Positions 45,606-58,918 of a stretch of 64,000 nt of DNA are shown here, piece after piece; within the stretch, counting starts at the first letter, position 1; every line of letters starts with the position of its first letter. The notes beneath the pieces were generated by a model that was not told the DNA's origin, did no database searches, and worked only from the letters and a program-made list of their open reading frames with translations. Position numbers and translations under genes: made by a program. Source of the DNA: Crocinitomicaceae bacterium (GTDB lineage: Bacteria > Bacteroidota > Bacteroidia > Flavobacteriales_D > Crocinitomicaceae); NCBI GenBank assembly GCA_030730025.1, contig JANQWC010000005.1, positions 143,886 through 207,885 on the forward strand. Reading direction: 5' to 3'.

Positions 45606-47573
45606 TTGAATTCTTCGCGCCCGTCTTTTACGCATGCCTTTGTGGGCATGGGCTGTGCCAATTCGTTGTTGCTGCATGCGCTGCATCGCAATGGTCTGCT
45701 GAAAAATAGCCGCTTATTGGTCATTGATCCGGAACCAAAAACCACCAACGACCGCACTTTTTGTTTTTGGCTGAGCCCCGAAGAACTCGAGGCCAATGGT
45801 TTGGCATCTTTAGTTGAACACAGCTGGAATCAAGTCATTTGCAATGACCAAGCACCGCAGCTGTTGCACAACAAACGCTATTATTATTTGAGTGCAGCCG
45901 CGCTTTATGCGCACACCAAAACCATATTAGCACAGCATGAATTTACTTGGCAACACCGTGAGGCCGATGGAGATTTGAGCGAGTTGGCCACGCACGTTTT
46001 TGATGCGCGTCCGCCAGAATGGAAGGTTCAGCACGCGTCAGAAACCTTACTGAAGCAAAGTTTTTTCGGTTGGGTGCTGCGTACCGCAAAACCTATTTTT
46101 GATCCGCGCTCCTTCACCATGATGGATTTCAGCATTGCACAAAATGAGCAAACGCAGTTTATGTATGTTTTGCCTTTTGATGCGCAGCAAGCCCTACTCG
46201 AACCCACGCGTTTTGGAAGCGAAACGATTTCCAAAGAAGAGGCCTTTGGTCTGATAGAAACCTATTTAGCCCCTTTTGATACCACTTTTGAGCTCATTTC
46301 ACAAGAGCAAGGGATTATTCCGATGTGCAGTGCAGCGCCAGTTATTGAACAAAGTGCTCCGAATGTGCACCGCATGGGCGCGCGTGCAGGACAGCTCAAA
46401 CCAAGCACGGGCTATTCTTTCGTGCGCAACCTCCACGACGCAAATGCACTAGTTCATTCAATGAAAGAAAATGCAAGTTGCCTGGAACGCCGGATAGTCA
46501 AGCGGCGTTTTGCCTATTACGATCGTTTGCTATTGCAAATTTTAGCACAAAAGCCAACGAGCGGCAAGGAGATTTTCCAACGGTTATTTGCTCGCAATAA
46601 AGCGCAAGACGTCTTAAATTTCCTAGACGAGCGCAGCACACCGCTACAAGAGGCACGTCTCATGCTCACGCTTCCGATATTTTTATTTTTGGCCGCTGCA
46701 TGCAAAGATCTTTGGTTCAATATTGCGGGCCTTGTCAAAAAAGTCTCACCTGCTATATGGATGTGTTTTGTTTCACTCCTAGGGCAGAGTTTTGGATTCA
46801 TCGAATGGAGCTGGCTACCATTAGCGCTCGGATTGCTTTTTGTTGGTTTGCCGCACGGGGCAATTGATCATTTACATCAGTTTCCCGGAAAAAGATGGAC
46901 GCAGTTAGTGCCTTATTTCACGCTATATTTTGCGTTGGGAATAGGTGTTTTGTTATTTTGGTGGTTTTCTCCACCTTTGGCTTTAGTTGTGTTTTTAGCC
47001 TATTCAGCGTGGCATTTTGGCCAGGCTGATCTAGAAATTTGGAAGATCAAGAATGTAACTTGGCGCCCATTTTTGTGGGGAGCATTTTCGCTACTTTTTT
47101 TGCTTTCAACTCATTTTTTAGAGGTTCAAAAAGTACTTTTTGAAATGGGAATCGTGTCGCAAATGGAGCGTATTGCAGCGTTTCAGGGCTATTTTACGAA
47201 TGTAACATTTTGGTTGTTACTCAGCTTGATACCGCTTTTTGTCTTCAAATCGTGGAGAATTATGGAGTCGCTTTTTGTCTTGTTTTTATTGAGCTATTTA
47301 CCATTGATAGTGGCCTTTGGCATCTATTTTATCTTTCAGCACAGCTGGAATGGCTGGCGCTACCTCACGCAAATCACAGCCCTGAAACCACTACAACTTT
47401 GGTTGCAGGCTTTGCCGTTTACGTTGGCTAGTATCGGCCTTTTTGCAGGATATTATTTTTGGTCTTCAGCTCAAAATTGGGGGCTGCTCTTTATCTTTTT
47501 GTCGGCGTTATCTTTTCCGCATGTGTTTTTCATGCACCGAGCGTATCAGACTAAAAAAGGCGTCAATGTTTGA
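45606..47573 (+). CDS. Fusion protein: lycopene beta-cyclase (CrtY) plus Brp/Blh beta-carotene 15,15'-dioxygenase
   Basis: One 655-residue frame joins two enzymes of retinal synthesis. Residues 1 to about 365 are a CrtY-type flavoprotein cyclase (lycopene to beta-carotene): dinucleotide motif FVGMGCANS (12-20), RTFCFWLSPEE (50-60), QFMYVLPFDAQQALLEPT (184-201), EQGIIPM (234-240) and GARAGQLKPSTGYSFV (258-273). Residues of about 380-648 are a polytopic membrane domain with the Blh iron-ligand motifs: GLPHGAIDHL (414-423), AYSAWHFGQ (465-473), FQHSWNGW (577-584) and FPHVFFMH (637-644). Blh cleaves beta-carotene to two retinals. TTG 45606 is the only start that keeps the FAD motif. The stop overlaps the convergent DOMON gene by 11 bases. 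No rhodopsin or other crt gene is in the window. Confidence 0.9.
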   Translation: MNSSRPSFTHAFVGMGCANSLLLHALHRNGLLKNSRLLVIDPEPKTTNDRTFCFWLSPEELEANGLASLVEHSWNQVICNDQAPQLLHNKRYYYLSAAALYAHTKTILAQHEFTWQHREADGDLSELATHVFDARPPEWKVQHASETLLKQSFFGWVLRTAKPIFDPRSFTMMDFSIAQNEQTQFMYVLPFDAQQALLEPTRFGSETISKEEAFGLIETYLAPFDTTFELISQEQGIIPMCSAAPVIEQSAPNVHRMGARAGQLKPSTGYSFVRNLHDANALVHSMKENASCLERRIVKRRFAYYDRLLLQILAQKPTSGKEIFQRLFARNKAQDVLNFLDERSTPLQEARLMLTLPIFLFLAAACKDLWFNIAGLVKKVSPAIWMCFVSLLGQSFGFIEWSWLPLALGLLFVGLPHGAIDHLHQFPGKRWTQLVPYFTLYFALGIGVLLFWWFSPPLALVVFLAYSAWHFGQADLEIWKIKNVTWRPFLWGAFSLLFLLSTHFLEVQKVLFEMGIVSQMERIAAFQGYFTNVTFWLLLSLIPLFVFKSWRIMESLFVLFLLSYLPLIVAFGIYFIFQHSWNGWRYLTQITALKPLQLWLQALPFTLASIGLFAGYYFWSSAQNWGLLFIFLSALSFPHVFFMHRAYQTKKGVNV

Positions 47574-49266
47574 ACACCTGAAAGCGCAGGCGTTGCTCAC
47601 CGATGAGTAGGAGGTAGGTACCGTTGGTGATTTCGTCAAGTACAGCAATAGAATGAGCGGTTGTGCCTTCTTGAAGTAAGCGACCCTGTGTATCCCAAAT
47701 TTGATAAAAAACGACGTTATTTAGGCCTGAAATCCATAAAGTGCCGTCGGTAACAGGGTTGGGATAAGCAAGATACGACGTTGTATTTTCATCGAGTCCG
47801 CTGTCTTCTATGGTGAGGTTAATGGTGACGCTGCTGTCACAACCATTAACAGAAGTAAAGAACTGGGTGTAACTTCCAGAAGTTGCGTAGTCGATGCCAT
47901 TCCAATTGAAAGCATCCAAAACGGTGCTGTCAATACCAATAGCATAAATAGGGTACACATTCAGGTTGAGCGATACAACTGAGTCGCAACCGGCTGCGCT
48001 TTGTAGCGAATCAATATAAACGCCGCTGGCCCATAAAGTTTGGCCGTTCCAAGGGAAAGAGCCACATGCGTTCTCGTTAATTGTGGTCTGAATTGCCGGT
48101 GTAATGGTTAGATTGAGTGTTACAGTGGAGTCGCAACCATAAATGGTTTGCCCTGCATAAATGTAGGATCCACTTTGCGCGTAGTTTTGTCCGTTAAATG
48201 AATAAGGATCACAAGTTGTGACATTTAAAGTCGTGCTCGATTGCAGGTGTTGATTGATGACCACACTTATTGGGGTGCTTTGTCCGCAAGTATTTTGTGC
48301 CAGAACTGATAGCGTTCCGGACACAAAACTCGGGGAAAATATCAAACTGATGTTTGTTCCGGTACTTGAGCCTGTCACACCTGATGGTGTAGTCCAAACA
48401 TAGGAACTTGCACCTTGAATACTTGGGGTATTGAATAACTGAACGCCTCCGCTATAGCAAAAATCAAGATTGCCACCTATTGTGGATGGCGCCGCTGGAA
48501 TTGAAATCAGGGTGATGTTGACGGCCAAACGGTTCGTGGATTCCAATCCATTAACTGTTTGTGTAGCATAATAGCTTGTGCCATTTACCATAACTGTATT
48601 GGATGCAAGTGGCGTGCCTCCTGTTGGGGTAGCATACCATTGAATGGATGTTCCTGTGGCGCTCAATTGACTTACCGTTGCACCTGCGCAAAGTGTTTGG
48701 CTGGCCGCTCCGGTTGGGGCTGCTGGCGGAGCAGGCGGTGGTACAAATGTAAAACTGGCTGCAGTGATGCCGCGGTTAGAACCGCCGTGGTTGCTGTAGC
48801 TATAGCTTGCGGTACTGGAACGCGACCAAATGAGGCTAATGGAAGTTGGGTTTGCCGGAAAAATGTAGTCATTGGCATCGCCGGTGTTCAGTGCGCGCGT
48901 CGCAATGATGGTGCGGATACCCGCATTGACGACATCTGAGGTTATGGTCCAGTTTTGTTGGGCATCGGTTACTGGAGCAGAAAAACCTGTGAGTTTGCAA
49001 TCGAAAGCGCTGAGTGTGGTGGCGCTATGGACACCAACAACATCCGTTCCGTTGGTCATGGAGCTGGCATTGAAGCCAAGAGCAAACCAGCGGCCGGAAG
49101 GGCCTGTAAGTGTGAGTGTGACTTGTGTACCTACATCAATTTTGGCAGTCATGGCTAGGCCTGCTGTAGAACTCAAATTAACTACACCTGTGGTATAGGT
49201 TTGGGCAAACGATACAGGAAGGATAAAAAGCAGTAAAAAAGCCAATAATAGCGTAGATTTTTTCAT
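47563..49266 (-). CDS. Secreted DOMON-like protein with type A T9SS sorting domain
   Basis: A 567-residue protein from ATG 49266 (MKKSTLLLAFLLLFILPVSFAQ, a good signal peptide; an upstream in-frame ATG at 49290 would run into the ankyrin gene). A DOMON-like module (about 25-190) includes RWFALGFNASSMTNGTDVV and IRTIIATRALNTGDANDYIF; such domains bind heme or sugar. Ig/PKD-like segments follow (about 190-360), then three repeats with GSY(I/T) and GCDS (about 365-490). A type A sorting domain (AYPNPVTDGTLWISG, NGTYLLLIGEQ) ends it. Third gene of a probable operon with the giant protein and the ankyrin protein. Confidence 0.85.
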   Translation of the reverse strand: MKKSTLLLAFLLLFILPVSFAQTYTTGVVNLSSTAGLAMTAKIDVGTQVTLTLTGPSGRWFALGFNASSMTNGTDVVGVHSATTLSAFDCKLTGFSAPVTDAQQNWTITSDVVNAGIRTIIATRALNTGDANDYIFPANPTSISLIWSRSSTASYSYSNHGGSNRGITAASFTFVPPPAPPAAPTGAASQTLCAGATVSQLSATGTSIQWYATPTGGTPLASNTVMVNGTSYYATQTVNGLESTNRLAVNITLISIPAAPSTIGGNLDFCYSGGVQLFNTPSIQGASSYVWTTPSGVTGSSTGTNISLIFSPSFVSGTLSVLAQNTCGQSTPISVVINQHLQSSTTLNVTTCDPYSFNGQNYAQSGSYIYAGQTIYGCDSTVTLNLTITPAIQTTINENACGSFPWNGQTLWASGVYIDSLQSAAGCDSVVSLNLNVYPIYAIGIDSTVLDAFNWNGIDYATSGSYTQFFTSVNGCDSSVTINLTIEDSGLDENTTSYLAYPNPVTDGTLWISGLNNVVFYQIWDTQGRLLQEGTTAHSIAVLDEITNGTYLLLIGEQRLRFQVFKH

Positions 49267-49273
49267 ATTCAGG

Positions 49274-49804
49274 TTAGTTGTATTTTTCAAAAAGGGCAGT
49301 CAGTTCAGGGTTCTGATGCAAGCGCAGTAAATCGGTAACCGTTCTACCTTGTGCATCACGCACTTCTAGACGTACTCCAGCCTCTAAAAGTTGCTTGATT
49401 TGCTCAAAGCGCAGCAAGTTAATGGCCAAATGAATCGGGTAGCCTAACTCTTCTAATTGGCAAACTTGATTGACATCGACCCCTTTTTTGAGCAATAGCT
49501 CGAGCATTTGCGCATCTCCTTTGAAAATCACGCCATAGATAGGTGCACCTTCTTTGAAACATTGGTTGGGATCAGCGCCTGCGTTCAGTAGTACCTCTGC
49601 TACGGCGTGGTTACCGCGATAGGTTGCCAGCAACAATGGTGTTGCGCCGTGTTCAGAAGTCAAATTGAGCTGCTCCGGATGCTTTTTAAGGAGTTTTTGC
49701 ATTTGTTGGGCAGTACCTGAGCGCGCGATATCAAAAACACTTTGTGCGTGCACATGGCTCGCAGTCAATAAAATCGTCAAGAAAAGATAGCGCAGCAGTT
49801 TCAT
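49274..49804 (-). CDS. Exported ankyrin-repeat protein
   Basis: A 176-residue protein from ATG 49804, where a signal peptide begins (MKLLRYLFLTILLTASHVHAQ). Four or five ankyrin repeats follow, with EHGATPLLLATYRGNHAVAE, VLLNAGADPNQC, LLLKKGVDVNQ and LLEAGVRLEVRDAQGRTV. Ankyrin repeats usually mediate protein binding; export to the periplasm is uncommon but known. It lies 19 nt after the giant protein's stop and 7 nt before the DOMON gene, so co-transcription is likely. Confidence 0.85.
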   Translation of the reverse strand: MKLLRYLFLTILLTASHVHAQSVFDIARSGTAQQMQKLLKKHPEQLNLTSEHGATPLLLATYRGNHAVAEVLLNAGADPNQCFKEGAPIYGVIFKGDAQMLELLLKKGVDVNQVCQLEELGYPIHLAINLLRFEQIKQLLEAGVRLEVRDAQGRTVTDLLRLHQNPELTALFEKYN

Positions 49805-49823: not shown

Positions 49824-52800
49824 TTAGCGCAATAGATTGACATGACCCATAAATACTTTGGTTTCTTGGCTAGCGGCAATCACCAATGAAATTTTCCAGG
49901 TGTAGGTGCCGTCTTGACAAGGAGTCGAACTATATCCTTCATGGCCATCCCAACCAACTTCAGGATCTCTGGATTCAAAAACGACCTCACCCCAACGGTC
50001 AAAAATGAGCAAGTGGTAAGTGTTGTTTTTAAATCCGGCAGACAGGATCGGTAGGAATTGTTGGTTGTTTTCGTCGTCGTTAGGTGTAAAGGAGTTAGGC
50101 ACATAAATACTGAGGTCCTCTACTACGCTAATTTTGGCGGTACTTGTATCGCTACAGTTCACCTCGTTGTAGGCCACGAGTTGTATGGTGTAGGTCGCTA
50201 CGGCATTCTGATACATGTGTTGAGGGTCTGTGGCAAAACTAGTCTCTCCATCGCCGAAATCCCAGCTATAAGAAACGGCATTTAAAGAGTTATTGGTGAA
50301 AGAGACCAGCGGTTGGTTGCTATCTAGAATGTAATCTGAAGCTTCAAAAGCGGCCACAGGATTGGCAAAAACACAAACGCCATCGGTGTAGGTTGTTTGA
50401 GCAGTACATCCTGCTGCATTGGTCACGGTCAGGCTCAGGTCATAGCAACCTAATTGATCAAATTGGGTGTTGGTGGTACCTAATTGTGGGCTGGTTTGTC
50501 CGTTTCCGAAGTCCCAAAGGTAAGACCAACCTTGGTTCAGGCTATCAGCAAAGAAAGTGACATCGAGGCTACCACAGCCAATGCTATCGGAGACTTCAAA
50601 GCTAGCTATGGGCAAGCTACCGATTTGTACCGCAAGGCTATCTTGAGCCACGCAACCGGTGTTGGCATCTGTTGTACTGAGGTTCACGATAAATGTTCCA
50701 GGGCCGGGATAGGTATGATTGGGGTTATTTAATATACTACTCGTACCGTCGCCGAAATTCCAAAGGAAGTTATTGCTGCCAGTTGTGTTGTTTTGAAATT
50801 GAACAGGGCTTTGGTCGCAAAGCGTGGTGCCGGTATATATAAAATTAATTTGAGGCAGCGGATTGACGCTAACGGCAATAGTATTGGGCAAAGACTGACA
50901 ACCTGTAGCAATTGCCGTAGCGACAACTGTATATTCTACCCCCTGAACAATATTTGTGGTTTGGCTCAGCGTATCGTCGATTAAATTGCTATTCTGAGCC
51001 GTATTGGCAGTTTCGCCGTAGACCTCTGGTTGGGCTGTTGCTTGCCAAACAAAATTACTCGGAATAGTGGCATCGAGGGCGAGATCTACCGGCGCACCTG
51101 AACAAATACTGAGGTTGGAGCTCAAAACAATAGGGAGCGAATTGACTAAAATGGTGAAATCCGCGGGTGTACCGGTACAGGTGAGGTTATTTGAAGTATA
51201 GTTCGGGATGACTACTATTTGAGCACTTGTAGTTTGCTGAGCTGTTGTCTGCGTAAGGAAACTAGGCAATGTATTTGTACCAATTGTGCCTAGCCCAATG
51301 CCAACATTGGTATTGCTCCAATTAAAAGTTGTGCCCGGAACGCTTCCCGTAAAATTTTGTTGCGGACAAATAACGCCTTCGCAAAAAGTAAGGTCAATGA
51401 GCCCCTGAACATTGGGGTCTGGCAAGACTAAAATATCAAAATTACTGGCTGTACCCAAACAGGTTTGCCCGTTGAATAGTAAGCTAGGAGTAATACTAAT
51501 TGTTGAAAGTAATTCTGTGTTGCTCGTGTTGCTCGTAGTAAAGGCCGGAATGATTTGTTGACCTGAGTTGCTGCCCATGCCGATATTTGGGCCACTTGCT
51601 GCCCAGTCATAGGTATTGGCTGCATTGTTGCCGTTGATAGCGATATTTCCCTGCGTTGTATTATGACACAAGGTCAAGTTATTTGGCGCGGATACTTGCG
51701 GTGTAGGTAAAACCTGAACCCATATCGGGAATATAGGCGTTGAACAACCATTGATTGCGGCCGTTCCGGTGACGTGATACAAGACCTCTTGGACTTGATT
51801 ACTCATATTTTGTAATACATCAGTGATCATGGCACTACTTACTAAGCTAGTGCTTTCTCCTGTGACGTTGATGTTTTGGTCGGCATACCATGTAAAGCTC
51901 ACGTTTGTATTGCCAAAGAGGCCGAGGTTCACGGCCGTTCCAGAACAGATGGCCAAGGTGTCGACGTTGAGCAATTCAAGTGGTGGCTTGATCAAAACTG
52001 ATAGCGTTTGTACGCCGCCTGCGCACCCTCCCACAACCGCAAGCGGCGTAATGGCATAGACCACAATTTGGTTCACGTTGGTGTTGTTCACCAATACGTC
52101 ATTGATATAAGTGCCGATGCTTGCACTAATCGATTCACCACTCACATTCGGATTGTCTACTGTAACAAACCAGCTAAAGTTGGAGGATACATTGGCATTG
52201 AGGTTGGCATTTACTGGCGAACCACTACAAATTTCCATCGTGGCTGGAACGGAAAGTTGAACGTCGGGCTGAACAGTAACCACGATACTGGAGTCTGGAC
52301 CTACACAACCAAAACTTGAAGTTGGAGAAATGGTATATGTAATTTGTTGGGGTGTACTTGAACTATTGACCAAAGTTTGAGCAAGTATGGGATTCGTTTG
52401 TGGTGTTTGTGCGGCTCCGCTAATGGCTGAATTATTGCTTGCAGACCATGTATAACTTGCTGCCACGGTACCCGCTAAATTGTAAAGAATGTTTCCACCG
52501 TTACAAATGGCGGTATCGTTAAAGGTAAGTAGAGATGGTTGCGGGTGGATGGTTATGCTGTAGCCACTCGAATCGCCAGGGCAGCTCAGGCCTAAGTTTG
52601 CATAAAACGGTAGAATGCTGATTTGTGCTATGGTGTCTTGATTGCTTAAATTTTGACTTAAAAAAGAGGGCACTTGGTTGCTGCCATTGGCGGGTAGACC
52701 TATCGTTTGATTGTCATTGGACCATAAATAGGAGGTGGCATTGCCTGAGATAAGTGTGGTATTGCTCAGTTCATTGTGACAATAACTCTGGTTGGGAATC

Positions 52801-55800
52801 AGATTGGCGAAGGCCACTGGGTTGACTACTAATTCAAGATCCAAGGCGGTTCCCGCGCAAGTTTGCAAGGCAGTTTGATACAACGGCGTAACGGTAAGGA
52901 GCGCTTCGTTCGGAACTGCACTAGTATTCGTGGTTAAAAAAGCGGGCAAGCTATCTTGCCCAGAGGCTGGTAAGCCCGTACTGATATTGTTATTGACCCA
53001 AGTATATGAATTGGCAGTGCCACTGAAACCCTGAGCAGCTACGCTTGTGCCGGTGCAATAAACCAAAGGTCCGGCATTAATGATATTGGGTTGTGGTAAA
53101 ACAGTCCAATCGAAATTCAGTGCCGTGCCCGGGCAAGCCAGCGCTCCGGCACTCACTATAGGCGTAACTTGAAAAGCAACCTGTAAAGGAGTAGCTGTCG
53201 TATTAGTGAGTGTGTAGGCGCCTATATTTCCTGTTCCGTTGGATGACAAAGGCAAGTTACTGCCGTTGTGCTGCCATTGGAATTGTGTATTGGCCACATT
53301 TCCACTAAATACAACTTGATTAGTACTTGCCCCGCTGCAAAGTTCTTGATTCGCTATGCTATCTACATTAGGAACCGGCAAGATGTGGATTTCAAATATT
53401 TCAGGTAAACCCACACACGTGAGTAAGCCCGTATCGATAACGGGTATGACGCTTATGCTTGCTACGGCATAAATGCTATCGAGGTTACTGCTGATAAAGG
53501 CAGGTAAGCTGGTGCTGGTTCCGCTGGCAGCAAGTCCGATTGTGGTATTGGTGTTCGTCCAGGAGTAATTGCTAGCCGTTCCGGTAAAAGGCAATGCGGA
53601 AATCGGACTGTTGGCACAGTAAAATAAATCTTGTTGGGCATTCATACTTGGGCCAGGTACAATATTGATGTTGAAGTTGATAGCTGAACCAGGACAATTT
53701 AATCCGTTCAAAGTATATATAGGGTTAATGCTTAAAAGTGCTGTATTATTACTAAGCCCCGGGTTGGCGGCAGTAAAAGATGGAATGCTGTCTTGACCGG
53801 TTGACGCCAAACCTATGCTCGGATTGTTATTACTCCAATTGTAAGAAGTACCTGTGCCCGTGAGGTTGATGGCGTTGGTATTGGCTCCGTTGCACCACAC
53901 TTGATTGCCAACAGCTTGCACAGTTGTAATCGGTGCTACACTAATATTAAACGTATCGATATTGCCAACGCAACTCAGCGCATTCAAATTGTAACTGGAC
54001 TGCACAATGAGCTGTGCAGTATTGACCACTTGGTTGCTGCTGTTTTGTGTGTTAAACGAACCGATGTTCCCCGTTCCAGAAGCTGCCAAACCGATACTTG
54101 GGTTGTTGTTGGCCCAACTAATGGTGTTTGCTGTACCACTGAAATTGATGTTACCTAAACTGCTCTGGTTACAAGCAAATACATCCTGAACTGGGTTGAT
54201 AAACGGTACGGCCAAGACTTGTATGGTGTAGGAGGAACTTGGTCCAGGGCAACTGAGCAAACCACCTGTGCTTGCAAACGCAGTCAGTTGCACGCTAGTT
54301 GTGCTGTTGCTGCTATTGGTGAGCAGCGCCGCCGGAAGCGACCCAGTACCGTTTGCTTGCACCCAACCAGAAAGCCCTGCTGAAACACTACCAAGGGTCC
54401 AACTGAAATTTGCGCCCGAAACCGTGCTATTCAAATTCACAATTTGTGAACTGTCTCCGCTGCACAAGACTTGATTGGCTTGCCCAAAACTAAGTATCGG
54501 AGTCGGGTTGACATCAATGAGTACGGTATCTGCAATACCCGGGCAACTGACGCCGTTGAGTTGTAAAGTTGCGAGCCCAACTAGAGCCGTTTGTTGTTGT
54601 GTATTACTAGTATTGGATACCAAGGTTGGTGGGGTATTGCCGAAGCCACTTGCTGCAAATCCGGAATTAGCCCCTAAGCTCAGCCAACTAAATGTGGAGT
54701 TGGGAAGTGAACTATTCCAGATGACCGCAGCACTTGAGTCTCCGTTGCAGAGCAATTGATCAGGGCTCCCACTCGTCATGACTTGTGGCAATACCGTAAT
54801 CAAAATGGTATCATTCGGCCCAGTACAACTCACGCCGTTAAGATTGTAGGTTGCAGTGACAAAAGCTGTGGCGCTGAGGTTATTGGCGGTATTGTTCTGA
54901 CTGATAAAATTGATGTTTCCTTGACCAATGCTTGGCAGGCCGATGCCATTGGGTAAACTCGACCAGCTGTAGCTTACTGGGTTATAAGCTGAACTGAAAT
55001 TGATATTTGCTTGACCTTGATGACAAAATGTTTCGTCGGAAGTGGGATCTACTAGTGGAAGCGGCAGCACATTGATTTCAAAATTGAGCGCTTGACCCGT
55101 ACACAATTGGCTTCCAAATGAATAAGTAGGCACAACTGAAATTTGAGCAGTTTCTAATTGAGTACCCTGATTTATTCCTATGAAACTACTCAAGTTGCTG
55201 CTTCCAGAAATACCTAAACCAATACTCGGGTTGTTGTTGGTCCAACTAAATGAACTGCCTGCAATATTACTTGAAAACCCAACGGCTGCAGTTGAATTAC
55301 CTACACAAATGCTCTGATCCTGAATTGGGTTTACAATCAAACTTGGGTGTACTGTAATATTGAAACTTGTTGGCAATCCAAGACAAGAAGCTGTGCCATT
55401 TGTATAGGTAGGCGTAATATCTACTTGCGCATTTAAGGCGATAGAGGTTAGGTTTTGACTCAAAAAAGAAATGTCTCCTGCGCCATTTGCCCCAAGTCCA
55501 ATGATTGGTTCGTTATTGACCCAACTATAACTATTGCCATTACTTGGTGTTGAACTGCCAAAATTGATATCGACATTGGTTAAGGCACAAACAACAATAG
55601 AAGAAACGGTATCGATGACCGGTAATGGATTGACGATGTATTGAAAAGATTGCACCGGACCCACACAGCCATTGATCGTTGCAGTGATGTTAAAGTTGCC
55701 GTTAATGGGGTTCGAAGTATTGTTTTGTGCTGTGAAACTCGGAATGCTGTCCTGACCACTACTTTGGTTCAAGCCAATGGCCGTATTGTCTAGGGTCCAA

Positions 55801-58800
55801 TTATAACTCACGCCGCTTACTGTCGAACTAAAATTACTGACGTTTGTCTGCGTGTTGTCGCAGTAGTAGAATGGGCCTTGGGCCAAAACTATCGGGTTGG
55901 GATTGATGCTGATTTGAAATAGGATTGGTGCAGATAAACAACCACTTGCGCTGGCCTGAACACTGATGTTGGCAACATTTAATGCGGTATCGAGATTGCT
56001 TGCTACAAAAGCGGGCAATCCCAAGCCATTGCCACTTACCCCAAGTCCAATGCTTGCGTTGTCGTTGGTCCAGATGTAACTAGTGCCAGCTACCGCATTT
56101 GGGTTAGAGAAAGCCAGTCCGCTGAAGTTTTGTTGATGACACAACTGAAAACTTGACTCCTGTGCAATACTTGGAATAGGTGTTGCGATGATTTGAAAAC
56201 TGATGGAGCTGCTGCTGCAGCCGTTGTTGGTGGCACTGAAGGTAATAAATGCAGTATCTGGGCTAGAACCTGTATTGTTGGCTACAAAACTCGGGATATC
56301 TCCTTGGCCACTTGCACCGAGCCCTATAGTTGGATTGTTGTTTGCCCAGTTGTACGTATTGCCACTAGGTTGTCCGCTAAAAGTAATGGCGTTGGTATTG
56401 GCACCACTGCACAAAACTTGATTACCAGGGTTTAGAATTTGAGGCGTGGGGAGTATGGAAATTGTAAAACTGAGCGCAGGCCCAGCACAACTACCTGAAT
56501 TACCCACAACAGTAACACTTGCGGTTTGTACGTTCAAAGTGGAATTTTGCACTGTGAACGAAGGAATGTCGCCATTTCCACTTGCGCCAAGGCCAATACT
56601 CGTGTTGTTATTTGTCCAGGAGAAGGTACTGTTGTTAAGGCTAGCGCCAAAGCTTACCGCATTGCTTGTTGCCCCCGGACATAAGGTTTGATTCAGCACT
56701 GTATCCACAATTGGGAGTGGTAGAATAGTGATGTCGAAGGTAACTGGTACACCAATACAAGCACCTTGGTTTGGCGTTACAATGATTTGTGCAATTTGTG
56801 GCGTAACGCCATTATTGAGTGCTGTAAAGTTAGGTAAGGGACCAGTCCCGCTGGCAGCTAAACCTATTGTAGGGTTGTTGTTGACCCAAGAATAGGTAAT
56901 GCCTGTATAAGAGCTACTGAAGTTTTGTATGGGCACCACTACTCCAGCGCAAAAACTCAGGTTATTGACCACATTCATGGTGTAGTTGGGCAATACGGTT
57001 ACAGAGAAGGTGAGCGAATCTGGGCAAGTGCCAAGATTGGCGTTTCCGTACACGCTGTATGTAACCGTCTGATTCACCAAACCATTATTGGTGAGTTGGT
57101 CATTGATGAGGTTGGTATTCTGCGGAGTAGTGCTTTCACCAGTGACATTTGCTTGGTTGGTGGCCTGCCAATAGAGATTCGAAGGCACATTGGCGCTTAA
57201 ACTCGTATTGAGCGTACTGCCATGACAAATGGTCGTAGCTGGCGGTGGATTGATTTGTAATTCGGGAAATACGGTGATGCTTTGTTGACAAGTTGAGTTG
57301 CAATTTGGCGTACCGAATTCTCCACCTGCCGGATCTTGCGGACTTACATTGAGGGTAAGGACATAGGTTTGAGCCGTATTGGTGGTGTTGTTGAGTATTA
57401 CCGTTGGTTGCGCAGCTGTCGAACTAGAGATGCTACCGCTCATACCCCCTGGGTTATTGAGGCTCCACAGGTAATTCAAGGGAATAGGAGAAGCATTACA
57501 AGTAGGCGCAACTGTGGAGTTAACCACTTGTAAATTAAGTGGTGAGCAACCAGATAAGGTGTCTAAAGAAAACCCACAAATAGGTGCTTCAATGACGCAT
57601 ATTTGTTGAATAAGCGTATCCAAGCCACAAGAATTGTATTGAATTTGAGAAATGCTATAGGTGCCGGGTGTGTTATAAGTAATGGCCAGTGTTTGGGAGC
57701 CGTTTCCAGCTAAGGAGTTGTAGTTGCCGTTATAACTGCCCAGTGTGCCACTATTTAGGGTAAAATCTACGCCTAGGGTTCCTCCGCCCAAGAGCCAATA
57801 AAATTTAGCTTGCCCGGTACAGTTGTAGGGTGCTGAGGTGCTCACGATATTGCCCGAAACACCGGTATTGGTGGCGGTAATTTGCGTGCCTGTACAGATG
57901 GTGGTGTCAGAAATGGTAAAGCCCGGCGTTGGAAGAGAATTGACGGTAATCGGAGAAACCGTACTGAAAGTTTGACCGCAAGCGTTTTGAGCGGTGACCT
58001 GCGCATAGAAGGTATTGTTGGGGAAATTGCTTCCTGTGGGGTAGGTAATACCGCAAGATGTTGTGCCAAAGATGTAATAAACGATTTGGTCGTTGGTGAG
58101 GTTGTTGTATGTTAATACCGTACTGGTGTCGTCATTGAAAGACAAGGTGTAAACAGTGCCTGGTGGATTGAAAATGCCAGGAGCCAATGTGGGGTCGATT
58201 ACGAAGGTAACCGGATTACCAGGGCAGATCCCTACTGAGTTGAGGGCCCCAAGAGATACAAAAGGATTGGAGCCAGAATAAATATTATAGGTTTGCGTCA
58301 GGTTACAAGCGCCGTTTTGTGCTGTGAGCGTAAAGTAGTTATTGCCGAGTGTGGCGGTCTGAGCAGCGCTATCGATATAGGTCTGCGCCGTTCCAGAACC
58401 ATAAGTGATGCTGTAGGTGGTGCCAGCTGGGTTAAGGTTGTTTTGATAAGCGGCGTTTTCAATCAGAATGGTAGTGGTGCCGAGTCCGGAACACAACGGA
58501 TAAGTTTGGGTACCATTGACGTCGATCGGGTTGTAATACACGCCGTTGGCAGAAACAAAGGGCAGTGAGAGTGTGAGGTTAGTGCTTGTAATTAGAATGG
58601 TGTCGTAGACCACGCAAGCCCCAAATGTTGCTTCAATGACATACGTTCCGGGAGCAGAGGACAATACATCGAGTTGGCTTGCGGTGCTATTGACAATTGT
58701 GCCGTTCAAAAACCAATTGATGCTACTCGGTGCGCCTGAATTACCCGTAAATGTTGGCGTGAGGGTTGTGGTGTCTGGGCCGCAGAGATTTTGGTTGGGG

Positions 58801-58895
58801 CCAAGACTTACTACTTGTGGGCACTGCGCGTTGGCAATACTCGAGAGAAAAGTATAGGAGAAAATTACAAGAAATAAGTGTAATCTTATAACCAT
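49824..58895 (-). CDS. Giant secreted repeat protein (3,023 residues) with type B T9SS/CHU_C sorting domain
   Basis: The largest gene in the window. ATG 58895 gives a signal peptide (MVIRLHLFLVIFSYTFLSSI then ANAQ). The in-frame TTG 18 nt upstream overlaps the -7 box and is rejected. About 545 N-terminal residues form Cys-paired Ig-like modules. About 23 PKD-like repeats of some 93 residues follow, then three PKD domains (NFLWNFGDGTSS, YLWDFGNGQTS, YSWDFGDGETS). The last 92 residues are a gliding-motility type B sorting domain (YVPNSFTPNDDENN, LLIFDRWGEVVFES). Probably a long surface filament or adhesin. It heads the operon with the ankyrin and DOMON genes. Confidence 0.93.
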   Translation of the reverse strand: MVIRLHLFLVIFSYTFLSSIANAQCPQVVSLGPNQNLCGPDTTTLTPTFTGNSGAPSSINWFLNGTIVNSTASQLDVLSSAPGTYVIEATFGACVVYDTILITSTNLTLSLPFVSANGVYYNPIDVNGTQTYPLCSGLGTTTILIENAAYQNNLNPAGTTYSITYGSGTAQTYIDSAAQTATLGNNYFTLTAQNGACNLTQTYNIYSGSNPFVSLGALNSVGICPGNPVTFVIDPTLAPGIFNPPGTVYTLSFNDDTSTVLTYNNLTNDQIVYYIFGTTSCGITYPTGSNFPNNTFYAQVTAQNACGQTFSTVSPITVNSLPTPGFTISDTTICTGTQITATNTGVSGNIVSTSAPYNCTGQAKFYWLLGGGTLGVDFTLNSGTLGSYNGNYNSLAGNGSQTLAITYNTPGTYSISQIQYNSCGLDTLIQQICVIEAPICGFSLDTLSGCSPLNLQVVNSTVAPTCNASPIPLNYLWSLNNPGGMSGSISSSTAAQPTVILNNTTNTAQTYVLTLNVSPQDPAGGEFGTPNCNSTCQQSITVFPELQINPPPATTICHGSTLNTSLSANVPSNLYWQATNQANVTGESTTPQNTNLINDQLTNNGLVNQTVTYSVYGNANLGTCPDSLTFSVTVLPNYTMNVVNNLSFCAGVVVPIQNFSSSYTGITYSWVNNNPTIGLAASGTGPLPNFTALNNGVTPQIAQIIVTPNQGACIGVPVTFDITILPLPIVDTVLNQTLCPGATSNAVSFGASLNNSTFSWTNNNTSIGLGASGNGDIPSFTVQNSTLNVQTASVTVVGNSGSCAGPALSFTISILPTPQILNPGNQVLCSGANTNAITFSGQPSGNTYNWANNNPTIGLGASGQGDIPSFVANNTGSSPDTAFITFSATNNGCSSSSISFQIIATPIPSIAQESSFQLCHQQNFSGLAFSNPNAVAGTSYIWTNDNASIGLGVSGNGLGLPAFVASNLDTALNVANISVQASASGCLSAPILFQISINPNPIVLAQGPFYYCDNTQTNVSNFSSTVSGVSYNWTLDNTAIGLNQSSGQDSIPSFTAQNNTSNPINGNFNITATINGCVGPVQSFQYIVNPLPVIDTVSSIVVCALTNVDINFGSSTPSNGNSYSWVNNEPIIGLGANGAGDISFLSQNLTSIALNAQVDITPTYTNGTASCLGLPTSFNITVHPSLIVNPIQDQSICVGNSTAAVGFSSNIAGSSFSWTNNNPSIGLGISGSSNLSSFIGINQGTQLETAQISVVPTYSFGSQLCTGQALNFEINVLPLPLVDPTSDETFCHQGQANINFSSAYNPVSYSWSSLPNGIGLPSIGQGNINFISQNNTANNLSATAFVTATYNLNGVSCTGPNDTILITVLPQVMTSGSPDQLLCNGDSSAAVIWNSSLPNSTFSWLSLGANSGFAASGFGNTPPTLVSNTSNTQQQTALVGLATLQLNGVSCPGIADTVLIDVNPTPILSFGQANQVLCSGDSSQIVNLNSTVSGANFSWTLGSVSAGLSGWVQANGTGSLPAALLTNSSNSTTSVQLTAFASTGGLLSCPGPSSSYTIQVLAVPFINPVQDVFACNQSSLGNINFSGTANTISWANNNPSIGLAASGTGNIGSFNTQNSSNQVVNTAQLIVQSSYNLNALSCVGNIDTFNISVAPITTVQAVGNQVWCNGANTNAINLTGTGTSYNWSNNNPSIGLASTGQDSIPSFTAANPGLSNNTALLSINPIYTLNGLNCPGSAINFNINIVPGPSMNAQQDLFYCANSPISALPFTGTASNYSWTNTNTTIGLAASGTSTSLPAFISSNLDSIYAVASISVIPVIDTGLLTCVGLPEIFEIHILPVPNVDSIANQELCSGASTNQVVFSGNVANTQFQWQHNGSNLPLSSNGTGNIGAYTLTNTTATPLQVAFQVTPIVSAGALACPGTALNFDWTVLPQPNIINAGPLVYCTGTSVAAQGFSGTANSYTWVNNNISTGLPASGQDSLPAFLTTNTSAVPNEALLTVTPLYQTALQTCAGTALDLELVVNPVAFANLIPNQSYCHNELSNTTLISGNATSYLWSNDNQTIGLPANGSNQVPSFLSQNLSNQDTIAQISILPFYANLGLSCPGDSSGYSITIHPQPSLLTFNDTAICNGGNILYNLAGTVAASYTWSASNNSAISGAAQTPQTNPILAQTLVNSSSTPQQITYTISPTSSFGCVGPDSSIVVTVQPDVQLSVPATMEICSGSPVNANLNANVSSNFSWFVTVDNPNVSGESISASIGTYINDVLVNNTNVNQIVVYAITPLAVVGGCAGGVQTLSVLIKPPLELLNVDTLAICSGTAVNLGLFGNTNVSFTWYADQNINVTGESTSLVSSAMITDVLQNMSNQVQEVLYHVTGTAAINGCSTPIFPIWVQVLPTPQVSAPNNLTLCHNTTQGNIAINGNNAANTYDWAASGPNIGMGSNSGQQIIPAFTTSNTSNTELLSTISITPSLLFNGQTCLGTASNFDILVLPDPNVQGLIDLTFCEGVICPQQNFTGSVPGTTFNWSNTNVGIGLGTIGTNTLPSFLTQTTAQQTTSAQIVVIPNYTSNNLTCTGTPADFTILVNSLPIVLSSNLSICSGAPVDLALDATIPSNFVWQATAQPEVYGETANTAQNSNLIDDTLSQTTNIVQGVEYTVVATAIATGCQSLPNTIAVSVNPLPQINFIYTGTTLCDQSPVQFQNNTTGSNNFLWNFGDGTSSILNNPNHTYPGPGTFIVNLSTTDANTGCVAQDSLAVQIGSLPIASFEVSDSIGCGSLDVTFFADSLNQGWSYLWDFGNGQTSPQLGTTNTQFDQLGCYDLSLTVTNAAGCTAQTTYTDGVCVFANPVAAFEASDYILDSNQPLVSFTNNSLNAVSYSWDFGDGETSFATDPQHMYQNAVATYTIQLVAYNEVNCSDTSTAKISVVEDLSIYVPNSFTPNDDENNQQFLPILSAGFKNNTYHLLIFDRWGEVVFESRDPEVGWDGHEGYSSTPCQDGTYTWKISLVIAASQETKVFMGHVNLLR
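50850..57260 (-). repeat. About 23 tandem PKD-like protein repeats in the giant gene
   Basis: By eye, 23 units of about 93 residues (about 279 bp). Most have the pattern QxLCSGxxTN, (Y/F)xWxNNNPxIGLxASGxGxIPSF and a second Cys, ending in ILPxPxV or similar. Units 1, 18-20 and 23 follow a different sub-pattern with NVSGE and Ix(D/N)xL. The units are well diverged at DNA level, so no long exact repeats remain. Confidence 0.85.
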
Positions 58896-58910
58896 ATATT
58901 CAATTAGCCA

Positions 58911-58918
58911 CAAAGTTA
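58911..58918 (-). promoter_or_regulatory. -7 promoter element of the giant-protein operon
   Basis: TAACTTTG on the minus strand matches TAnnTTTG and lies 15 nt before ATG 58895. It includes the TTG that could otherwise be taken as a start. Confidence 0.6.

Follow-up and report, generated by a model that had tools for sequence, protein, structure and literature searches.

A CrtY-Blh gene fusion widespread in Bacteroidota and its probable role as a lycopene-to-retinal enzyme

Rhodopsin needs retinal as its light-absorbing component, and in the accessible parts of the literature covered here the bacterial lycopene cyclase gene crtY and the beta-carotene dioxygenase gene blh are treated as separate genes. 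A 64,000-nucleotide (nt) stretch of a Crocinitomicaceae genome (GCA_030730025.1, contig JANQWC010000005.1, positions 143,886 to 207,885; hereafter the window) holds both in one gene, crtY::blh (45606..47573, + strand), which raises the question of whether a single polypeptide leads from lycopene to retinal, as the initial annotation of this DNA had proposed. The answer favored here, from comparison of sequences, is that the gene probably encodes a bifunctional membrane enzyme that would convert lycopene to retinal and feed a proteorhodopsin, in which case its cyclase half would be a second cyclase dedicated to retinal; the fusion probably has a single origin.

The claim of one uninterrupted CrtY-Blh frame is borne out by a 655-amino-acid (aa) open frame in which both Pfam families score over their cut-offs. 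The frame opens with TTG at 45606, closes with the stop codon at 47571-47573 and is free of stops in between. The TTG start is inferred, and it is plausible because TTG or GTG occupies the same position in eight near relatives (TTG in seven, L002-L006, L008 and L009, and GTG in L007, as read from the alignment with the codons inspected; L numbers denote locus stretches). The CrtY-type half (residues 11-358, 45636..46679, + strand) matches PF05834 (Lycopene_cycl) with 145.9 bits against a Pfam gathering score of 23.4, over profile positions 3-372 of 380. The helical, hydrophobic Brp/Blh beta-carotene 15,15'-dioxygenase half (residues 405-643, 46818..47534, + strand) passes NCBIfam TIGR03753 (125.2 bits, cut-off 95.25) and PF15461 (BCD; residues 409-643, 101.4 bits, cut-off 28). 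The two Pfam matches follow each other without overlap, and no other Pfam family appears up to E=0.1. The NCBIfam cyclase models are not reached, with 108.9 bits for TIGR01790 (lycopene cyclase family), about half its cut-off of 209.5, and 63.5 bits for TIGR01789 (cut-off 215.2); an unfused crtY beside blh (L240) likewise stays under the TIGR01790 cut-off with 96.4 bits.

The AlphaFold2 model, with 23 fused sequences as input, has a mean predicted local distance difference test score of 88.3 and a predicted template modeling score of 0.74. It contains strands and helices to about residue 355, a helix at 358-379 and only helices after, with no long linker. At the junction (residues 359-404, 46680..46817, + strand) the helices 358-379, 382-395 and 399-420 are consecutive without a long loop, and hydrophobic segments start near residue 347. 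No significant sequence match to a solved structure was obtained for either half (best E 0.2). The 50 Foldseek matches listed of 1099 for the model belong to flavoproteins, geranylgeranyl reductase 3atq among them, and they are therefore informative on the first, cyclase half only.

Could the single frame be an assembly or sequencing artefact that joined two adjacent genes? The initial annotation had named such an error as a possible refutation, and neighboring separate crtY and blh genes do occur in other genomes. A named-genome scan covered 342 stretches with 320 relatives, of which the best 80 were kept, and all counts on named loci refer to these. Both halves lie in a single frame in 80/80 of them, and 22 other fused proteins that were aligned share 31-86% identity with the window protein. 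The genus gives the same picture. Among its 37 genomes (G000-G036, with G000 the window's own, 81% complete), the fusion is found in 25, G000 included, two copies being cut by contig ends (G032, G033); a whole-genome search of G000 found one copy. Because the fusion recurs in 80/80 named loci from many assemblies, the artefact is rejected, its probability being next to nil.

The fusion is widespread within the phylum. The 80 loci are assigned to Crocinitomicaceae, Cryomorphaceae, Vicingaceae, Chitinophagaceae, Flavobacteriales and other Bacteroidota, nearly all as metagenome-assembled genomes (MAGs). Vicingaceae AH-578-N02 and AH-660-G13, unmarked as MAG, may at a guess be single-cell genomes, and loci titled Streptomyces griseus, Sphingomonadales and Chryseobacterium gleum are probably misnamed bins. 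In the sample of the order, BCD occurs in 170/399 genomes, at least 86 of them in frames of at least 600 aa, the CrtY half having been checked for part of these, and the others mostly in frames of about 300-330 aa. In the sample of the phylum it occurs in 59/395 genomes, five of them fused (G000, G020, G602, G618 and G716); the last three, collectively f34, fall outside the window's class. No relative of the fusion is among 97 pattern matches in viral contigs, and of the 19 plasmid records that match, none spans 80% of the query, the 15 listed matching the cyclase half only. A BCD match in a 958-aa frame (G629, L182) was considered as another kind of fusion and rejected, being a long frame of a genome rich in guanine and cytosine by composition, with no CrtY match.

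Several irregular loci were also seen in the genus. All that G025 retains is the last 88 residues of the Blh half, preceded by stop codons; in this 98% complete genome, without a rhodopsin match, the tail (L030, G025:C15) resembles a decayed fusion remnant. In G385 a divergent stand-alone blh adjoins an opposite-strand rhodopsin gene (L127, G385:C166), and the same genome (C183, C66) also holds a 499-aa frame with part of CrtY and Blh and a further CrtY piece.

Whether both halves could be active was judged from conserved residues and from selection. Here, fused denotes CrtY and Blh in one frame, linked adjacent crtY and blh genes, and single a stand-alone gene. Residues Y92, Q151, F153, G155, E199 and others of CrtY are invariant in 125/125 fused, linked and single proteins, including E199 in LLEPTRF (codon 46200..46202, + strand), which we take to be the catalytic glutamate of lycopene cyclase. 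The complete set of cyclase motifs initially described stands in part: PF05834 is matched near full length and E199 is kept, whereas the flavin adenine dinucleotide (FAD) motif reads G14-M-G16-C-A-N19, with Asn in place of the third Gly of GxGxxG. In the dioxygenase half, the motifs PHGAIDH, AWHFGQ, QHS and FPH were read correctly, and their four His, presumably the iron ligands, are each conserved in at least 129 of 131 proteins: H417 (46854..46856) in 131/131, H470 (47013..47015) in 129/131, H579 (47340..47342) in 129/131 and H639 (47520..47522) in 130/131, the remaining row being gapped (all + strand). At position 583, the second His of an HxxxH pattern, the window protein has Gly.

Both halves evolve under constraint. 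For 11 of 14 fused-gene pairs, the other three being saturated, the ratio of nonsynonymous to synonymous substitution rates (dN/dS) is 0.096-0.163 in the CrtY half and 0.095-0.227 in the Blh half. The cyclase half is the more conserved one in 10/14 pairs, with one tie and three in reverse. As a practical aside, the replacement at residue 19 (window 45660-45662) is a signature of fused cyclases and could sort short contigs.

The place of the fusion depends on the other carotenoid genes of the cell. Two of the crtEBI genes named in the initial annotation, crtI and crtB, were looked for and found in the genome, on other contigs. In G000 an extracytoplasmic function (ECF) sigma factor gene, crtI, a squalene/phytoene synthase gene (crtB), idi and a photolyase gene stand in a row on one strand. 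The same five are consecutive at L161:6823-11873, and L162, L163, L165, L166 and L171 have a like order, so that the run recurs in several genomes of the genus, the family scan of this run covering the L161 proteins only; the row is perhaps a light-related operon. On the window's contig, about 189 kb from the fusion, are a gene for CruF (PF04240), an enzyme that hydrates carotenoid ends, and one for CrtZ, which hydroxylates them; the CrtZ gene is right where the contig stops. The CrtZ of G000 is 49% identical to a CrtZ-like query (an L164 protein, encoded beside crtB and crtY), and counting G000 such a match occurs in 55/60 relatives. A retinal-only pathway without CrtZ was considered, given no PF04116 match in G000 and several fusion relatives, and dropped when the Bacteroidota CrtZ-like query matched; since PF04116 (FA_hydroxylase) fails to detect the CrtZ-like protein in G000 and elsewhere, Pfam alone is no safe ground for calling CrtZ absent.

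Beside CrtZ stands a second type of cyclase. CrtYcd (PF18916) adjoins CrtZ in G011, a sister genome that is 99% complete and whose fusion is 87% identical, and CrtYcd is found in 51/60 relatives, including 22/25 fusion genomes of the genus. The three without a match are G000, where the contig ends, G029 (78% complete) and G032 (66%). CrtYcd also occurs in 25 of 27 other genomes of the order that have a BCD frame of fused length, in which the CrtY half was confirmed for G072, G108 and G360 only; the misses are G360 (86% complete) and G160 (62%). Because most carriers also have CrtYcd, the fused cyclase is probably a second cyclase, apparently reserved for retinal. Of the lycopene-to-retinal route proposed at the outset, the true gene fusion is supported; with CrtYcd in most carriers, the route is probably a dedicated retinal branch, not a general beta-carotene route. 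A similar split with two CrtY is seen in the linked genomes G422, G502, G510 and G521; other linked genomes, e.g. G153, G664 and G719, have a single cyclase. PF05834 also matches in 10/14 control genomes, and weak matches to its FAD motif only were not counted as CrtY.

These genes also bear on how many ends the fused cyclase closes. It is quite improbable that the cyclase half closes one end only, the monocyclic carotenoid then being cleaved to one retinal and one acyclic product. The G000 CrtI scores 727.7 bits against the cut-off of 640 of NF058655 (phytoene desaturase/3,4-desaturase), and together with the CruF in the genome this makes monocyclic carotenoids likely in the cell. Cleaving a monocyclic carotenoid would, however, waste half of each carotenoid, and Nonlabens CrtY alone in Escherichia coli gives mainly beta-carotene, as far as the available part of PMC11855829 goes; no sequence feature tested tells a monocyclase from a bicyclase. 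In the same source, CrtY with CruF yields mainly 1'-hydroxy-gamma-carotene, so that CruF is a competitor for the same carotenoid ends.

As the initial annotation had expected, a rhodopsin gene was found in the genome of the window, by phmmer and profile hidden Markov model searches, and also as stated there none lies in the window itself: the only PF01036 match of G000 is on contig 13 (C13:14993-15652; L141:11976-12722, - strand). Its best matches among solved structures, 9jov and 9jou (E about 1e-94), class the protein as a proteorhodopsin. Its helix C reads RYVDWMLTVPLMCVEF, with Asp, Thr and Glu, the combination that is the rule for proton pumps, and it fits one. Aligned via green proteorhodopsin, the Gly of MWGVLSG falls on the carotenoid-binding site, where binding is decided at Gly153 of Kin4B8 and Gly156 of XR (PMC12308411, accessible part); because this Gly seems to admit antennas and CrtZ is encoded, a carotenoid antenna is possible in G000.

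Fusion and rhodopsin tend to occur together. In the genus, with G025 left out, rhodopsin is present in 23/25 fusion genomes vs 3/11 without the fusion (Fisher p=0.0002, uncorrected for kinship), and the three exceptions are all at most 85% complete, one of their rhodopsins being a fragment. Rhodopsin lies within the flanks of 39/80 named loci, the flank lengths differing: directly upstream on the same strand in 29, downstream on the same strand in 7 and on the opposite strand in 3. The window's own fusion has no rhodopsin beside it.

To trace the origin of the fusion, trees of the two halves were compared, excluding CrtY frames of fewer than 250 matched residues and Blh frames of fewer than 190, with near-copies removed by shared 5-mers. 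The fused rows were thinned from 76 (CrtY; to 47 and 27) and 74 (Blh; to 48 and 26). L186 was relabeled as linked by hand, and L127, L182, L248 and L139 were omitted from the careful Blh tree for their long branches. In the quick trees (47 fused of 96 rows for CrtY, 48 of 105 for Blh), the fused proteins form one side of a branch with an SH-like approximate likelihood ratio test (SH-aLRT) value of 98 each. In the careful trees (27 fused of 76 rows and 26 of 80) they again do so, with support of 100/98 for CrtY and 100/100 for Blh and in 100% of 200 bootstrap trees each. Nearest to the fused set in the CrtY tree are the linked pairs L241, L246 and L247 (SH-aLRT 99), in which an overlap of 1 or 4 nt between the crtY stop and a blh start is possible; in L241 a rhodopsin gene lies immediately upstream of the pair. 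In linked pairs crtY comes first in 23/23, and in 15/23 a possible blh start (ATG, GTG or TTG), taken as a candidate codon and not an established start, is no more than 4 nt away from the crtY stop. Trees and gene order are consistent with a probable single fusion event in an adjacent crtY-blh pair located near a rhodopsin gene; a single origin is fitted and not proven, because the roots are midpoints. The fused genes of the window's genus are scattered over the fused clade with the f34 genes nested inside, which makes transfer between lineages likely.

Several observations weigh against the proposed reading. As to the origin, ten other linked rows are nearest to the fused set in the Blh tree (SH-aLRT 91), with L241, L246 and L247 elsewhere. 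As to the use of retinal, the fusion genomes G004 (93% complete) and G007 (99%) show no rhodopsin match. In the dioxygenase half, the second His of HxxxH is present in 0/74 fused proteins, which have Gly, Ser or Ala, and in 10/24 linked and 16/33 single Blh. As to the second cyclase, CrtYcd was not seen in G000 itself, where the contig stops beside crtZ, and its presence in 10/11 genomes of the genus without the fusion makes it an indicator of the general pathway rather than of the fusion. The three f34 genomes show no CrtYcd at this search sensitivity, so the fusion may be the sole cyclase there. Fourteen genomes (G043, G052, G057, G069, G079, G092, G098, G109, G133, G156, G211, G213, G218 and G327) combine CrtYcd with a separate Blh and show no CrtY near full length; a second cyclase is therefore not always required for retinal.

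The last point, with the loss in the FAD motif, feeds the idea that activity is confined to the dioxygenase half, with the cyclase half turned into a scaffold or membrane anchor and the beta-carotene coming from CrtYcd. The third Gly of GxGxxG is present in 0/76 dereplicated fused proteins (N 48, A 18, S 6, T 4), and kept in 13/23 linked and 24/26 single CrtY, and most fusion genomes hold CrtYcd. A mere scaffold is nevertheless unlikely, considering the dN/dS values and the greater conservation of the cyclase half in most pairs, the invariance of E199 and its companions in 125/125, and the three f34 fusion genomes, in which a search for both kinds of cyclase gave none besides the fusion.

These results suggest a path in which lycopene would first be cyclized at both ends by the N-terminal flavoprotein half; the beta-carotene formed would then be cleaved at its 15,15' bond by the membrane dioxygenase half at the C-terminus, and the resulting retinal could charge the proteorhodopsin that G000 encodes. 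The other carotenoids would come from separate genes: cruF and crtZ, which share the contig, and crtYcd, which lies beside them in the sister genome. The fused cyclase would probably be a second cyclase dedicated to retinal. According to the accessible parts of the reports, a Bacteroidota strain with crtYcd and cruF produces monocyclic carotenoids (PMC10784355), and one single-chain CrtYcd is described as a monocyclase (PMC2889829). Free beta-carotene may be scarce in cells with CruF, CrtZ and CrtYcd, and the joined active sites may hand beta-carotene to the dioxygenase ahead of any use of the intermediates by CruF or CrtZ. Such an old and widespread two-step retinal synthase, with a private beta-carotene pool channeled inside the protein and shielded from CruF and CrtZ, is a tentative reading, with somewhat less than an even chance. 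Both halves might instead be active and independent, the fusion setting a 1:1 ratio and joint membrane delivery with no channeling. The close spacing of the 15/23 unfused pairs noted above suggests that coupled expression was already under selection, and against independence it can be said, not decisively, that a second cyclase amid CruF and CrtZ, which share its intermediates, makes insulation useful; independence is a serious contender with perhaps a third of the weight.

The bacterial CrtY-Blh fusion appears undescribed in the literature searched, as a variant built of known enzymes. The initial annotation held that its novelty would fall if the fusion proved common and already characterized; it is widespread in the phylum, and no characterization was found in that literature. 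No description turned up among the listed titles and opening abstract lines, or in the accessible text, of the open-licence literature searched, and a report elsewhere is possible. A cyclase-Blh fusion goes unmentioned in the accessible parts of PMC9418006, PMC10675870, PMC9227343, PMC12308411, PMC5864233, PMC13043013, PMC12422013, PMC7734400, PMC10784355, PMC11855829, PMC2889829 and PMC5877348.

The closest parallel in design among the systems compared is XP_013761525.1 of Thecamonas trahens, a four-part CrtI-CrtB-CrtYc/d-Blh protein for which Rius et al. 2023 suggest direct cleavage to retinal (PMC10016063, accessible part). Like the window protein, it joins a lycopene cyclase and a C-terminal Blh in one polypeptide; unlike it, the Thecamonas protein is eukaryotic (from a protist), has a CrtYc/d-type cyclase (PF18916) and carries CrtI and CrtB in addition (PMC10016063, same part). 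The window protein has PF05834 and PF15461 only, with no PF18916, CrtI or CrtB domain. Marine MAGs contain gene clusters of xanthorhodopsin, crtY and brp/blh (PMC13043013, accessible part), and L240, L241 and L248 likewise hold the two enzymes beside a rhodopsin, in the order of the fusion; unlike in the fusion, crtY and blh are separate genes there. The stand-alone CrtY of Flavobacteriia, e.g. of Nonlabens spongiae, is a lycopene cyclase too, and takes part together with CruF, within a gene cluster, in the synthesis of myxol (PMC11855829, accessible part). The single CrtY analyzed here share the conserved residues of the fused proteins and, unlike them, have GxGxxG intact in 24/26, the Nonlabens CrtY being outside the alignment. 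CrtYcd of Bacteroidota (PF18916) is also a lycopene cyclase found in most of the same genomes, and differs in its Pfam family and its place beside CruF and CrtZ. A Blh is known from an uncultured marine bacterium, presumably strain 66A03. This member of the Brp/Blh family (Kim et al. 2009, cited in the accessible part of PMC9227343) is stand-alone and outside the alignment here.

Elsewhere in the window, a 3029-aa repetitive open frame occupies 49824-58913 on the - strand, and a DOMON/PKD protein is encoded near it at 47563-49290. The C-terminus of the long frame resembles what we take to be gliding-type sorting domains.

That most carriers possess two lycopene cyclases of unrelated families points to a separation of the retinal branch from the xanthophyll branch. 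A single lycopene-to-retinal gene in many Bacteroidota would serve as a marker of retinal self-sufficiency and as a possible tool for retinal production, and it offers a clean system for testing beta-carotene channeling between membrane enzymes; if the reading of a private beta-carotene pool is true, the fusion would be a natural case of carotenoid channeling.

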